Part shown: piece after piece, positions 5,651 to 54,183 of the stretch | Layout: each line of letters begins with the position of its first letter | Numbering within the stretch: the first letter of the stretch is position 1 | From: Bacteroidota bacterium | Lineage (GTDB): Bacteria; Bacteroidota; Bacteroidia; UKL13-3 | DNA: 64,000 nucleotides | Direction: 5' to 3' | Assembly: GCA_947477885.1 (NCBI GenBank) | Contig: CANJUD010000007.1 | Location: 1 to 64,000, forward strand | The notes under the pieces: generated by a model | The model's input: the letters and a program-made list of their open reading frames with translations, nothing else | Told to the model about the DNA's origin: nothing | Database searches by the model: none | Made by a program: the position numbers and the translations under genes

Positions 5651-5660
5651 TGGGAAAATA

Positions 5661-5792
5661 GTAATCAGTGGTCAGTAATCAGTAGTTAGTAGCTGAAGCC
5701 GCATGGCACTGACCACTGGTTACTGACTACTGTATACTGGTAGTTGGTGGCATGACCCCGCATGGCACTGACCACTGGTTACTGACTACTGT
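5661..5792. repeat. Cluster of direct and inverted repeats (35-bp unit repeated)
   Basis: A 35-bp unit beginning CCGCATGGCACTGACC is present twice without a mismatch, at 5699-5733 and 5758-5792. The copy-to-copy period is 59 bases. Upstream, at about 5661-5690, a diverged inverted version (CAGTGGTCAGTAATCAGTAG) is present. The second copy runs into the thioesterase gene and supplies its last codons and stop. Confidence 0.85.
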
Positions 5793-6186
5793 TTACTAGT
5801 ACATCAATCAAATATTGGGGGCATCGCGTTGGCCGACTAGTGGTTTTATCTACGAAATAAAGAGTAACTTGGGCATTGGTTAGCAGCTCTTTTTCCTGGT
5901 TATATATTTCGTAGCGAAATTTTATTCTTACCGTGGGTAGCTCTTCTAGAATAGTTTTTATGCTAAGTAAATCATCATAATACGCTGCTTTTTTAAATTC
6001 AAAATTCATGTTATGTACGGGCATGGCCACGCCCAAATCTTCAACATTTTTATAACTTACGCCAAGCGAACGCAATGCTTCCGTTCGTGCTTCTTCGGTA
6101 TATAATACATAGCTGCTGTGGTGCACCACGCCCATTTGGTCAGTCTCGGCATAGCGCACGCGGATGGTGTGTTCGTGTGTAAACAT
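5779..6186 (-). CDS. Acyl-CoA thioesterase of the YbgC/4HBT hot-dog family
   Basis: 135 residues from the chosen ATG. The N-terminal motif RYAETDQMGVVHHSSY contains the catalytic Asp16 and the His/Tyr context of 4-hydroxybenzoyl-CoA/YbgC thioesterases, and RIKFRYEIYNQ forms a central strand. It should hydrolyse acyl-CoA thioesters in the cytosol; YbgC members act on short acyl-CoAs or acyl-ACP in phospholipid-linked roles. The frame extends to a TTG at 6201, but that TTG belongs to a TATTTTTG promoter box, so ATG 6186 is preferred. The last four residues and the stop are encoded by the intergenic repeat at 5758-5792, so the natural C-terminus may have been replaced. Confidence 0.9.
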   Translation of the reverse strand: MFTHEHTIRVRYAETDQMGVVHHSSYVLYTEEARTEALRSLGVSYKNVEDLGVAMPVHNMNFEFKKAAYYDDLLSIKTILEELPTVRIKFRYEIYNQEKELLTNAQVTLYFVDKTTSRPTRCPQYLIDVLVNSSQ

Positions 6187-48809: not shown

Positions 48810-50033
48810 ATGGATCAAGGGAAATCAGGTTTCAGTGAATTAGCCAAACAGGCAACATTACAGCCGCAAGAAATGCCGGCGGCGATAATTACTAGTAACC
48901 AACAATTATTGATTGGTGTTGCCAAGGACAGCACCTTTCAAGAAAACCGTGTTCCACTTACCCCATCATCTGTTGGCCTATTGGTTAACAATGGACACGA
49001 TGTTATTATAGAGTCTGGTGCGGGCAAGGGAGCGAATTTTTCTGATACCAACTATAGCGAAGCTGGTGCCCGCATTGGTTATGATAAAAAACAAGTGTTT
49101 GAGGCTGAAATATTGCTTAAGGTGGACCCGCCCACTATGGAAGAAATAGAATTGATGAAGCCTGACCAGTTGCTTATCTCTGCTTTACAACTAACAAGCT
49201 TAAATGCAGATTATATAACTGCTTTACAAAAGAAAAAAGTGAATGCCGTTGCTTATGAGTTTTATAAAGATTCATCGGGAAGTATCCCAATTATAAGGTC
49301 TATGAGTGAGATTGCAGGTAGTACAAGCTTGCTTATTGCTGCTGAATATTTGTCGAGTGCGAGTGGTGGCAAAGGTGAAATGCTGGGCGGCATATCGGGC
49401 ATCCCGCCAAGTGAAGTAGTAATTATTGGTGCGGGAACTGTGGGCGAATTTGCAGCAAGAGCAGCTATTGGCCTAGGAGCATCAGTCAAGGTCTTTGATA
49501 ATTCCTTGTTCAAATTACGCCGATTACAAAATAATATTGGAGAACGCTTATTTACTTCAGTATTACAACCCAACATATTGTCTCGTGCTCTCAAAACAGC
49601 TGATGTAGCCATTGGTGCCTTGCGAGGGGAAGACAATGCCGGTATGTGTGTGGTAAACGAACAAATGGTGATGCAGATGAAACCTGGGGCTGTAGTTATT
49701 GATGTATGTATAGATTTGGGTGGCTGTTTTGAAACAAGCGAAGTGACTAATCATACCAATCCTGTTTTCCGCAAACATGATGTGATACATTATTGCGTAC
49801 CTAATATACCATCACGCGTAGCCCGCACTGCCAGTTATGCTCTAAGCAATGTTTTAGCACCGCTACTCATGAACATTGCGGATAGTGGAAGTTTCCACAA
49901 ATTGATCTGGGAAAGACCTGGTGTGCGACAGGGCATATATGTATATAAAGGGCAGCTTACCAATAGGTTTGTGGCCCAGCGTTTCAATATGCAAAGCAAA
50001 GATATTGACTTGCTTATTGGTGCCCATTTATAG
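48810..50033 (+). CDS. ald: Alanine dehydrogenase (AlaDH/PNT family)
   Basis: 407 residues. The AlaDH/PNT N-terminal domain shows IGVAKDSTFQENRVPLTPSSVGLLVNNGHDVIIESGAGKGANFSD, and the C-terminal NAD-binding domain shows SEVVIIGAGTVGEFAARAAIGLGASVKVFD. RVPLTP and the later PGAVVIDVCIDLGGCFETS and SRVARTASYALSN segments are conserved in alanine dehydrogenase. It catalyses NAD-linked L-alanine to pyruvate and ammonia. Members close to the transhydrogenase alpha subunit look alike, but no membrane pntB gene follows. Its 3' end overlaps the convergent glycosyltransferase gene by 20 bases. Confidence 0.9.
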   Translation: MDQGKSGFSELAKQATLQPQEMPAAIITSNQQLLIGVAKDSTFQENRVPLTPSSVGLLVNNGHDVIIESGAGKGANFSDTNYSEAGARIGYDKKQVFEAEILLKVDPPTMEEIELMKPDQLLISALQLTSLNADYITALQKKKVNAVAYEFYKDSSGSIPIIRSMSEIAGSTSLLIAAEYLSSASGGKGEMLGGISGIPPSEVVIIGAGTVGEFAARAAIGLGASVKVFDNSLFKLRRLQNNIGERLFTSVLQPNILSRALKTADVAIGALRGEDNAGMCVVNEQMVMQMKPGAVVIDVCIDLGGCFETSEVTNHTNPVFRKHDVIHYCVPNIPSRVARTASYALSNVLAPLLMNIADSGSFHKLIWERPGVRQGIYVYKGQLTNRFVAQRFNMQSKDIDLLIGAHL

Positions 50034-51533
50034 GGTTGATATATATATAATACCCGAACCCTAAACTATCTGGGTTCTGTGAAATCAATTTGTATTTTGA
50101 ACCAAGCAAGTTTTGTATGTGATTTCCTGGAAAAACAGTGCCGTGGTCTGCATCTATAAATACTATTTTTTTATAATTATTGATAGTGGTAAATACAGAG
50201 TCGGAAGTTACATTGACTCCGTATATGTTCTGTTTATTTAGCTCAGCATCAATGTTGGCATATGCGTCTTTTTCATCGTACTGTTTAAAAATATTTCTAT
50301 CATAATAATAACTAAAACTGAACATTGTCCAATGTGGTTGCACCAATGTTAGCGTTCCCTCATTTGCTCTTTGCGTTTTCACAAGTTCCACCATCTTATC
50401 CGTCCGAATATTTGGTTCAGGATTAAAGTCTACAGTAACTACAAAAAATAAAGGAAGTAATATATATATGTATTTCAAATGCCGAATCTGGGTAACCACA
50501 TTAATTATATAAGCCATAAACAGCGGGAAAGCCACACCTGCAGGCATCAAATATCTGCCCAGAAACATGGGTACCTTAAAAGACACAAAAAACATTAAGA
50601 AATATACTGAACTAAACCAGCATAAAATTACAAGCCCTTCTTTAGAAATGATCCTTCTTTAGAAATGATCCTTTTTTTGATGAGTGCCAATACTATAAAT
50701 ATAGCCAATATAATTAAAGAAGTCACTGCATTTAGAGGCTTATTGCTAAATGACCAGATGTTGTTATATAATGGTTCAATACCTGTTACTTTTTGCACCC
50801 AACTATCGGCCCAATTATTATTTCCATGAATTTTTTGTAACAATATATATAATAATGGTGTGAGCAAAACCACAACTATCATATTTGCCCATATGAGAAC
50901 TTTAATTTTATTACGATAAATAAAAAATATGAGGAAAGCTGCAATTGCTTGAGAAACCAATACCCATGCTGCAAAATAATGCAAATACATCATCAAGGTA
51001 TTTGCAAGTATATAATATACAATATCTAGTTTACCGGGGTGGTTAAAAACAATCTTGAGAAAGCAATAGAAAGATACTACAGTAAGTAAAGCAAAAAAAC
51101 TATAACACCTTGCTTCGTGCGAAAAAAAGATATGATAATTTGAAAATAAGAACAAAAAACTTGCAACAATTACCACCTGATTGTTGAAAAATCGTTTGCC
51201 TATTTTATATATAAACACAGCTGTTAATGATGATGCCAAAACGGATAATATCCTTACCGAAAATGCATCTATTCCAAAACATTCTACCCAATAATGCAAA
51301 ATAAGTTCATATAGGGGTGGGTTATTGCCTGAAAATAATTGTTCCGTAATTGCACCCACATTCATTTGGCTCATATAAACTGAAAAGGGCTCATCTCCGC
51401 TCAAAGGTTGTGCCGACAGGTATAGTAACTTCAATATAAAATTAACGACAAAAACAATCAAACACATCAAGCCTGTTTTGCCCAAAAGCATTTCAATTTT
51501 TTCTGAATACGATTTAATAATATAGCTATACAT
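50014..51533 (-). pseudogene. Membrane glycosyltransferase (GT39/ArnT-like) broken by a 17-bp tandem duplication
   Basis: The N-terminal part (51533 down to 50628) and the C-terminal part (from 50595 to 50014) are in different frames. Between them CCTTCTTTAGAAATGAT occurs twice in a row, at 50636-50652 and 50653-50669. Removing one copy restores one open frame of 500 codons from ATG 51533 (KKRIISKEG then LVILCWFSSVYFLMFFVSFKVPMF ... ). The protein would have about eleven membrane helices, an extracytoplasmic PLSGDEPFSVYMSQ loop with acidic residues (as in the GT39 DxD/DE motif) and a C-terminal periplasmic domain. It probably adds sugars from a lipid-linked donor. As sequenced, the protein stops early. 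Confidence 0.85.
50636..50669. repeat. 17-bp tandem duplication in the glycosyltransferase gene
   Basis: Two exact adjacent copies of CCTTCTTTAGAAATGAT, 17 bases each (17 is not a multiple of 3), are responsible for the frame change. Confidence 0.95.
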
Positions 51534-51543: not shown

Positions 51544-52746
51544 ATGCAGGACAAAGAAACGCTAAAAAACATTATCAAAACGAAAGCAAATGAAATTAGC
51601 AATCATATTGCAGGCTTCCGTCATCATTTGCATGCCCATCCAGAACTGAGTTTCAAGGAATTTGAGACTTGTAAATTTGTTGAACAGAAACTTCAGGAAA
51701 TTGGAATCGGGCATATTCAACATATTGCAACCACAGGACTTGTTGCCTTGATAGAGGGACAAAACCCTGGCAAAAAAACCATTGCTCTTCGTGCCGATAT
51801 GGATGCTCTGCCCATTACAGAACTAAACGATGTGCCTTACAAAAGTCAAAACACAGGTGTGATGCATGCATGTGGGCATGATGTGCACACAAGTTGCTTA
51901 TTGGGAGCCGCAAACATATTATATAATACCCGCCACTTGTGGGAAGGAACCGTGAAATTATTATTCCAACCCGGAGAAGAAGTTTTGCCCGGCGGAGCAT
52001 CGCTTCTTATAAAAGAAGGGGCTTTGCAGAACCCTGAACCTACTGCTATTTTTGGGCAACATGTAATGCCGCTTATCCCAGTGGGCAAAGTAGGTTTTAG
52101 GCCCGGATTATACATGGCTAGTACCGATGAAATATATGTAACCGTAAAAGGCAAAGGTGGCCATGGAGCTATGCCACATCTCAATATTGATCCTGTATTA
52201 ATTACCAGCCATATTATTATAGCATTGCAACAAATTGTTAGCAGGAATGCCAATCCAATTGTTCCTTCAGTTTTAAGTTTCGGGAAAGTAATTGCCAATG
52301 GTGCTACCAATATAATACCCAACGAGGTGAAACTGGAAGGCACTTTCCGCACTCTTGATGAAGCTTGGCGAACAAAAGCTCATGAGCTGATGATAAAGAT
52401 GGCAACAATCATAGCTGAAAGTATGGGCGGAAGTTGTGAATTTAGAATAGACCGTGGTTATCCGTTTTTACACAATGATGAAAATTTAACTAATCAAGCC
52501 AAGCAGAACGCTATTGAATATCTAGGTTCAGAAAATGTACTTGATCTCGATATATGGATGGCTGCGGAAGATTTTAGTTTCTATAGCCAACAAATGCCCG
52601 CTTGTTTCTATAGGTTGGGGACACGCAATGAAGCTAAAGGCATTATATCGTCAGTACACACTCCTACTTTTGATATCGACGAAGCTGCATTGGAAATAGG
52701 CAGTGGGCTTATGGCTTGGCAAGCAGTATGTGAATTGGCAGAATAG
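51544..52746 (+). CDS. M20 family amidohydrolase (N-acyl-L-amino acid / hippurate hydrolase type)
   Basis: 400 residues. Dinuclear metal motifs: HLHAHPELSFKE near 29-40, ALRADMDALPITE near 82-94, HACGHDVHTS near 106-115, and PGEEVLPGGASLLI near 140-153. HFDV-like and VKGKGGHGAMPH segments of the dimerisation domain follow, and the late DIWMAAEDFSFYSQQMPACFYRLG closes the metal site. It hydrolyses acyl-amino acids or peptide-like amides in the cytosol. It is divergent from the broken glycosyltransferase gene. Confidence 0.94.
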   Translation: MQDKETLKNIIKTKANEISNHIAGFRHHLHAHPELSFKEFETCKFVEQKLQEIGIGHIQHIATTGLVALIEGQNPGKKTIALRADMDALPITELNDVPYKSQNTGVMHACGHDVHTSCLLGAANILYNTRHLWEGTVKLLFQPGEEVLPGGASLLIKEGALQNPEPTAIFGQHVMPLIPVGKVGFRPGLYMASTDEIYVTVKGKGGHGAMPHLNIDPVLITSHIIIALQQIVSRNANPIVPSVLSFGKVIANGATNIIPNEVKLEGTFRTLDEAWRTKAHELMIKMATIIAESMGGSCEFRIDRGYPFLHNDENLTNQAKQNAIEYLGSENVLDLDIWMAAEDFSFYSQQMPACFYRLGTRNEAKGIISSVHTPTFDIDEAALEIGSGLMAWQAVCELAE

Positions 52747-52779: not shown

Positions 52780-54183
52780 ATGATTAAAAAGAAACAAATT
52801 ATATCCATTTTATCCGATTTTAGGTTTTGGATTTTCTTTTTTTTCATTCTTCGTTTAATTGGGATAACCAATGCTCCTTTAGAAGTTGGACACAACTGGA
52901 GACAATCATTAACTGACATGATTGCCCGAAACTTTGTGGAGGGGAATCCCAACTTATTATATCCGCAAATAGATATGGCGGGAAACCAAACTGGTATTAT
53001 CGGCTCTGAATTCCCTTTTTATAACTATTTAATTTATCTAGTATCTGTGGTGTTTGATTATTCTCATTGGTATGGCCGTTTAATTAATTTAATCGTTTCA
53101 AGCTTTGGTATATATTTCTTCTATTTACTTATAGAAAAAATTTGTAATAAGAAAATAGCTTTCAATTCTTCAACTGTTCTTTTATCATCTATTTGGTTTG
53201 GTTTCTCCAGAAAAATCATGCCCGATACGTTTAGTGTTTCATTGGTCATTATTGGGTTGTATTACTGTTATCAATATTTAACTACCGGCTCCTTTTTTAA
53301 ATTATTTTTATTTTTCGTATTTGCTACATTAGGTATGCTTTGTAAAATTCCTGCATTAAGTTTGATTGCTGTGATTCCAATAGTTATTATAGTTAAAGAA
53401 ATTTCTACAAACAGAAAATTGATCGTTTTAATTACAACTTCTATTGGCATAGCAATAGTAGGTTTATGGTATTTTTATTGGGTGCCTTATTTACTACAAA
53501 CTTATCAATACCAATTATATTTCCCAAGAGGACTAGTTGATGGGCTTAAGGAGATTCTTCAACTGCTGCCTCAGTTTTTTGAAAAATTCTATTTCACTTC
53601 ACTCTATTCTTATATTGCTTTGGCTTTCTTTTTTGCAGGAATATATTATATTGCCAGAAGTAAAAATTTGTATTTAAAAGGCGGAATTACAATAATCACA
53701 TTGACCTTTTTTATGTTCATTTTAAAAACAGGATACGTATTCCCTTTGCATAATTATTATATTATACCTTTTACGCCTATTATGGCTTTGCTAGCGGGCT
53801 ACGCACTATCTAAAATACCCACCAAATATGTATATATACCCTTGGTATTAATTTCGGTTGAAGGTATTGCAAACCAACAACATGATTTCTTTATAAAGGA
53901 TAGCGAAAAATATAAACTTTCTTTAGAAGGTATTATTAATAAACATATGGGAGCGAAAGAATTGATTGCTATAAATGGGGGGACAAATCCTCAAGAAATA
54001 TATTTTGCTCATAGGAAAGGGTGGAGTATTGGTAATAATATGATTAACAAGGAAGACCTAAATCATCTTGTTCAATCCGGTGCCTCGTATCTGATAATAG
54101 ACAAAAAATCTTTTACAAATAAGGTTGAATATTATCCCAAAATTTTTTCCGACAGGTATTTTGATATATACAAATTGAACTGA
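52780..54183 (+). CDS. Membrane glycosyltransferase, GT39/ArnT-like
   Basis: 467 residues with about ten to eleven membrane helices. The first periplasmic loop holds NAPLEVGHNWRQSLTDMIARNFVEGNPNLLYPQIDM, in the place of the acidic catalytic loop of GT-C enzymes, and a soluble C-terminal stretch from about 375 (HRKGWSIGNNMINKEDLNHLV). It probably transfers a sugar from a polyprenyl-phosphate donor to an envelope acceptor. A second such gene, broken, lies 1.2 kb upstream on the other strand. It starts 33 bases after the amidohydrolase stop. Sugar and acceptor cannot be told. Confidence 0.82.
   Translation: MIKKKQIISILSDFRFWIFFFFILRLIGITNAPLEVGHNWRQSLTDMIARNFVEGNPNLLYPQIDMAGNQTGIIGSEFPFYNYLIYLVSVVFDYSHWYGRLINLIVSSFGIYFFYLLIEKICNKKIAFNSSTVLLSSIWFGFSRKIMPDTFSVSLVIIGLYYCYQYLTTGSFFKLFLFFVFATLGMLCKIPALSLIAVIPIVIIVKEISTNRKLIVLITTSIGIAIVGLWYFYWVPYLLQTYQYQLYFPRGLVDGLKEILQLLPQFFEKFYFTSLYSYIALAFFFAGIYYIARSKNLYLKGGITIITLTFFMFILKTGYVFPLHNYYIIPFTPIMALLAGYALSKIPTKYVYIPLVLISVEGIANQQHDFFIKDSEKYKLSLEGIINKHMGAKELIAINGGTNPQEIYFAHRKGWSIGNNMINKEDLNHLVQSGASYLIIDKKSFTNKVEYYPKIFSDRYFDIYKLN

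Follow-up and report, generated by a model that had tools for sequence, protein, structure and literature searches.

Simple-sequence-repeat phase variation is known for surface glycosyltransferases, for example in siaD of Neisseria and in Campylobacter, and two short direct repeats bracketing a unit are the classic set-up for slipped-strand duplication. As to the capsule genes of Streptococcus pneumoniae, spontaneous and reversible tandem duplications are described for cap3A, cap8E, and tts (Waite 2001, 2003, as described in PMC4243769 and PMC4022640). Here we describe a gene for a GT-C membrane glycosyltransferase (PMT_2 family, ArnT-like fold), encoded on the minus strand from 51533 to 50014 of a 64,000-nucleotide stretch of DNA (the window) from an uncultured member of the Bacteroidia (Bacteroidota), whose reading frame is split by a tandem duplication of 17 bp. 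With the two-copy state read from one assembly (one consensus) of the species, we consider it probable (at about 0.7) that this is a recent loss-of-function slippage mutation in a single-copy GT-C gene, caught in the sampled population.

A 17-bp Tandem Duplication within Coding Sequence

The duplication described in an earlier note on this DNA is exact, its two copies of CCTTCTTTAGAAATGAT being identical and adjacent (Table 1), and the frame arithmetic of that note is also correct: the gene spans 1520 bp, 1520 mod 3 is 2, and (1520-17) mod 3 is 0. In the whole 3.12-Mb genome the unit occurs only at these two adjacent sites, 50636-50669, and the whole-genome 17-mer search gave no sign of a separate allele with a single copy. 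Exact tandem repeats with a unit of at least 10 bp were listed in 861 kb of the genome (the window plus 797 kb), with three third-order Markov simulations of the same 861 kb as the chance control. The simulations produced 0-5 such repeats each, none with a unit longer than 12 bp, and the 17-bp tandem copy exceeds this chance expectation. Most of the real tandem repeats in the 861 kb are either intergenic heptamer arrays or in-frame protein repeats with units divisible by three.

Table 1. Features of the broken locus and heptamer arrays; positions are those of the window unless a contig of this genome (G000; C1, C2, C3, C7) is named.
Feature	Position	Strand	Remarks
17-bp unit CCTTCTTTAGAAATGAT, copy 1	50636..50652	.	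exact
17-bp unit, copy 2	50653..50669	.	exact; followed by a further CCTT at 50670-50673
5' fragment of broken gene	50628..51533	-	301 aa from ATG at 51533; PMT_2 domain and invariant GDEPFS motif
3' fragment of broken gene	50014..50595	-	193 aa from first ATG; two membrane helices and C-terminal domain
AlaDH (alanine dehydrogenase)/PNT-like gene	48810..50033	+	convergent; syntenic in both congeners
M20-family peptidase/amidohydrolase gene	51544..52746	+	divergent; syntenic in both congeners
Second PMT_2-family gene	52780..54183	+	intact; remotely similar to broken gene
Heptamer arrays, window	5660-5692, 5708-5739, 5767-5797		
Heptamer arrays, C2	14329-14794, 21898-21952, 70840-70930, 101241-101289		
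Heptamer arrays, other contigs	C1:55780-55852, C3:50794-50826, C7:75960-75988		

The unit starts with CCTT, and the four bases that follow it are also CCTT. These form a 4-bp direct repeat around the unit, so the state before the duplication would have been two copies of CCTT placed 17 bp apart. Replication slippage between these two copies probably duplicated the intervening unit, and the slipped-strand origin proposed in the earlier note is plausible given this flanking repeat. The same slippage could occasionally restore the gene through loss of one copy, with no dedicated switch involved. No hairpin that might have caused slippage is predicted at the repeat (z +1.2).

An assembly or sequencing artefact, with the true genome having one copy and an intact gene, is an unlikely explanation, even though the assembly, with 25 contigs and no detected 16S rRNA gene, looks like a metagenome-derived draft, the nearest relative with a name is also a metagenome-assembled genome, and all five other PMT_2 matches of this genome are long open frames of 425-628 codons. 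Against this explanation, the assembly is not strewn with such duplications, the 17-bp unit being the only exact one of at least 15 bp, with a length not divisible by three, inside coding sequence in the 861 kb, and the microhomology at the flanks matches the prediction for a biological event. Moreover, an array of 34 bp is far below ordinary short-read length, and base-calling errors do not typically take the form of a clean tandem copy of 17 bp.

Other repeats are also present in this genome. Related heptamers (for example AGTAATCAGTAGTC, which reads ACTGATTACTGACC on the opposite strand) build mostly intergenic arrays at many places in this genome, with 14-bp and 21-bp periods. These arrays are similar to direct repeats of the heptamer TAACTGA, known from Beggiatoaceae, Cyanobacteria, and a small number of Bacteroidetes (PMC4679880). 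Two exact tandem repeats of approximately 2.6 copies each are found outside long open frames, one with a 46-bp unit (C2:135502-135621) and one with a 32-bp unit (C3:27083-27168). A crude screen for other frame-broken genes returned mostly ordinary overlapping genes.

Orthologues and the Age of the Break

Orthologues are present in both congeners, the closer one (G001) and a second one (G002), in each case with the AlaDH/PNT-like gene on one side and the M20 peptidase gene on the other, and both are single open frames, of 525 and 523 codons from stop to stop, respectively. A two-frame structure shared by the orthologues, which would have pointed to separate genes, was therefore not observed. 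With the halves of the broken gene searched separately, the N-terminal part is 68% identical to G001 and 63% to G002, and the C-terminal part 61 and 55%, respectively. The DNA alignment with G001 contains one 17-bp gap at the site of the duplication, while the alignment with G002 is less clear there, this stretch having diverged. The repeat is absent from both congeners, and in G001 the second CCTT is missing here as well. From the intact syntenic orthologues and the single 17-bp gap relative to G001, the two-copy form is, on sequence comparison, the derived one in this genome. A second genome of the same species was sought and not found, the sole close match being G001.

Further homologues, 40 in number, were taken mainly from other Bacteroidia, with a few from elsewhere. 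Of these, 36 are full-length frames (478-565 codons); of the others, two run into contig ends (L047, L074), one contains an N-gap (L073), and one is broken elsewhere (L075), where no tandem unit of at least 8 bp is involved. A recurrent break in the gene family, for which L073 and L075 were the candidates, was rejected on these grounds, and tandem repeats do not interrupt any other family member examined.

As to the age of the break, relative rates were compared between this genome and G001, with G002 as the outgroup. In the N-terminal part, 19 unique amino acid changes are seen in the window lineage versus 25 in G001 (Tajima chi-square 0.82), and in the C-terminal part 14 versus 30 (chi-square 5.82), the direction being toward slower change in the window lineage; with dS between the congeners at approximately 1.6-2, near saturation, this test is blunt, and it would miss a gene death that is recent on this scale and yet long ago in generations. 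In the broken gene dN is much smaller than dS, and further frame lesions are absent. Since neither half shows acceleration, a second frame lesion is lacking and the two copies are identical, the sequence points to a recent break. Of the options raised in the earlier note, a new mutation is thus favored, the two-copy state being derived and the break apparently recent.

Fold and Predicted Consequences for the Enzyme

The assignment of the disrupted gene to glycosyltransferases, with two separate frames here and single-frame orthologues in the congeners, is supported by the Pfam PMT_2 domain (PF13231), matched by the 5' fragment at 43.3 bits and by the intact orthologues at 36.7 and 36.3 bits (cut-off 26.1). 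The 3' fragment by itself matches no Pfam family at a score above the cut-off. The predicted model of the intact orthologue is of the GT-C fold (pLDDT 85.8, pTM 0.88), and a fold search with this model returned ArnT (5f15) as the best match (E 1.8e-7, TM 0.54), with OST/PglB and ALG9/ALG12 as further matches; a sequence search of the PDB returned no match. In agreement with a GT-C enzyme, the first periplasmic loop carries an acidic motif, GDEPFS, which is invariant in 23 homologues and is present in the window. A more specific function is not indicated: the score against the NCBIfam equivalog model for ArnT (aminoarabinose transferase) is 16.4 bits versus a cut-off of 567, and scores against the NCBIfam mannosyltransferase models are likewise far below their cut-offs.

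In the orthologue model, the break site maps to the loop that connects helix 266-284 to helix 292-311. Of the 301 residues of the 5' fragment, approximately 294 are in the ancestral frame, followed by an out-of-frame tail; the frame shift caused by the duplication would thus truncate the protein in this loop, before the last three membrane helices. What is missing from the 5' fragment are the predicted helices 292-311, 320-342, and 345-361 and the C-terminal domain, and 9 of the 39 residues invariant in 23 homologues fall beyond the break. With these three predicted helices, the C-terminal domain and the nine invariant residues removed, loss of enzyme function is very likely.

One could propose instead that the two fragments form a functional two-piece enzyme, or that the function is rescued through reinitiation or frameshifting. 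Both halves are conserved, the ATG of the 3' fragment (at 50595) is 33 bp downstream of the stop codon of the 5' fragment, in an open frame that extends back to 50658, and the model places the break in a connecting loop and not within a helix. However, translation from this ATG would begin within the next helix (292-311 in the orthologue) and leave part of it out, and no relative has a split gene, making this proposal most improbable.

Genomic Neighborhood and the Question of a Switch

The neighboring genes are housekeeping ones (rRNA adenine dimethylase, AlaDH/PNT-like, M20 peptidase, Rieske, glutamate dehydrogenase family, chaperonin). The 3' ends of the broken gene and of the AlaDH/PNT-like gene overlap by 20 bp (50014-50033), and their counterparts overlap in G001 too. 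No RNA families were found near the broken gene, the only one within the window being a tRNA elsewhere, and a plasmid search returned no match. The earlier note also pointed to a second, intact gene of the same family nearby. This holds at the Pfam level, but the gene is not a close paralogue: in BLASTP the two proteins share 21% identity over 91 residues (E = 0.07), and a profile comparison gives a probability of 5%. Its counterpart does not adjoin the locus in G001. Because it is a remote relative and is away from the locus in G001, there is no reason to expect redundancy from it.

A selected phase-variation switch, in which gain and loss of a 17-bp copy toggles the gene and varies a glycan, would have a precedent in the reversible duplications of pneumococcal capsule glycosyltransferase genes (PMC4243769), and coding capacity is preserved on both sides of the break. 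However, the copy number is no more than two, both the repeat and the second CCTT are missing from the closest congener, the neighbors do not represent a surface-polysaccharide cluster, and a tandem-repeat interruption occurs in no other family member examined. We thus regard a selected switch as highly unlikely, and we are just as doubtful of its extended form, a phase-variable membrane glycosyltransferase in which a 4-bp microhomology would prime gain and loss of a non-repetitive segment of 17 bp and so generate glycan heterogeneity in the population. The on/off switch of a cell-surface sugar suggested in the earlier note has therefore found no support, given the two copies, the absence of the repeat in the congeners and the housekeeping neighbors. 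Switching as such is possible; a dedicated switch is unsupported, and the present features do not tell an accident from a switch.

Comparison with Known Systems

A recent slippage mutation remains our preferred account, and the locus presents a clean case of a recent gene break of the reversible type, one that automatic annotation would present as two short hypothetical genes. The protein itself is like ArnT and other GT-C/PMT_2 enzymes in the predicted fold of its orthologue and in its PMT_2 Pfam match, but it is unlike ArnT in sharing only 11% identity with it and in scoring far below the NCBIfam cut-off. Like in Neisseria siaD and Campylobacter, slippage shifts the frame of a glycosyltransferase; however, those systems rely on hypermutable tracts of homopolymers or short units in many copies, while here a 17-bp unit is present in two copies and is absent from both congeners, and so does not form a many-copy conserved tract of a contingency locus. 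The pneumococcal capsule genes are more similar: there too a tandem duplication inactivates a gene for a sugar polymer and is in principle reversible by the loss of one copy, and here as with cap3A an exact duplication, of a length not divisible by three, is found in a glycan gene, with the one-copy form intact in the congeners. In the pneumococcal case, according to the accounts cited above, switching was seen in culture and the capsule is known, whereas here there is one consensus sequence and no evidence of switching. If reads showed both alleles, this locus would become an environmental example, from Bacteroidia, of tandem-duplication phase variation, which has been described mainly in pathogens.
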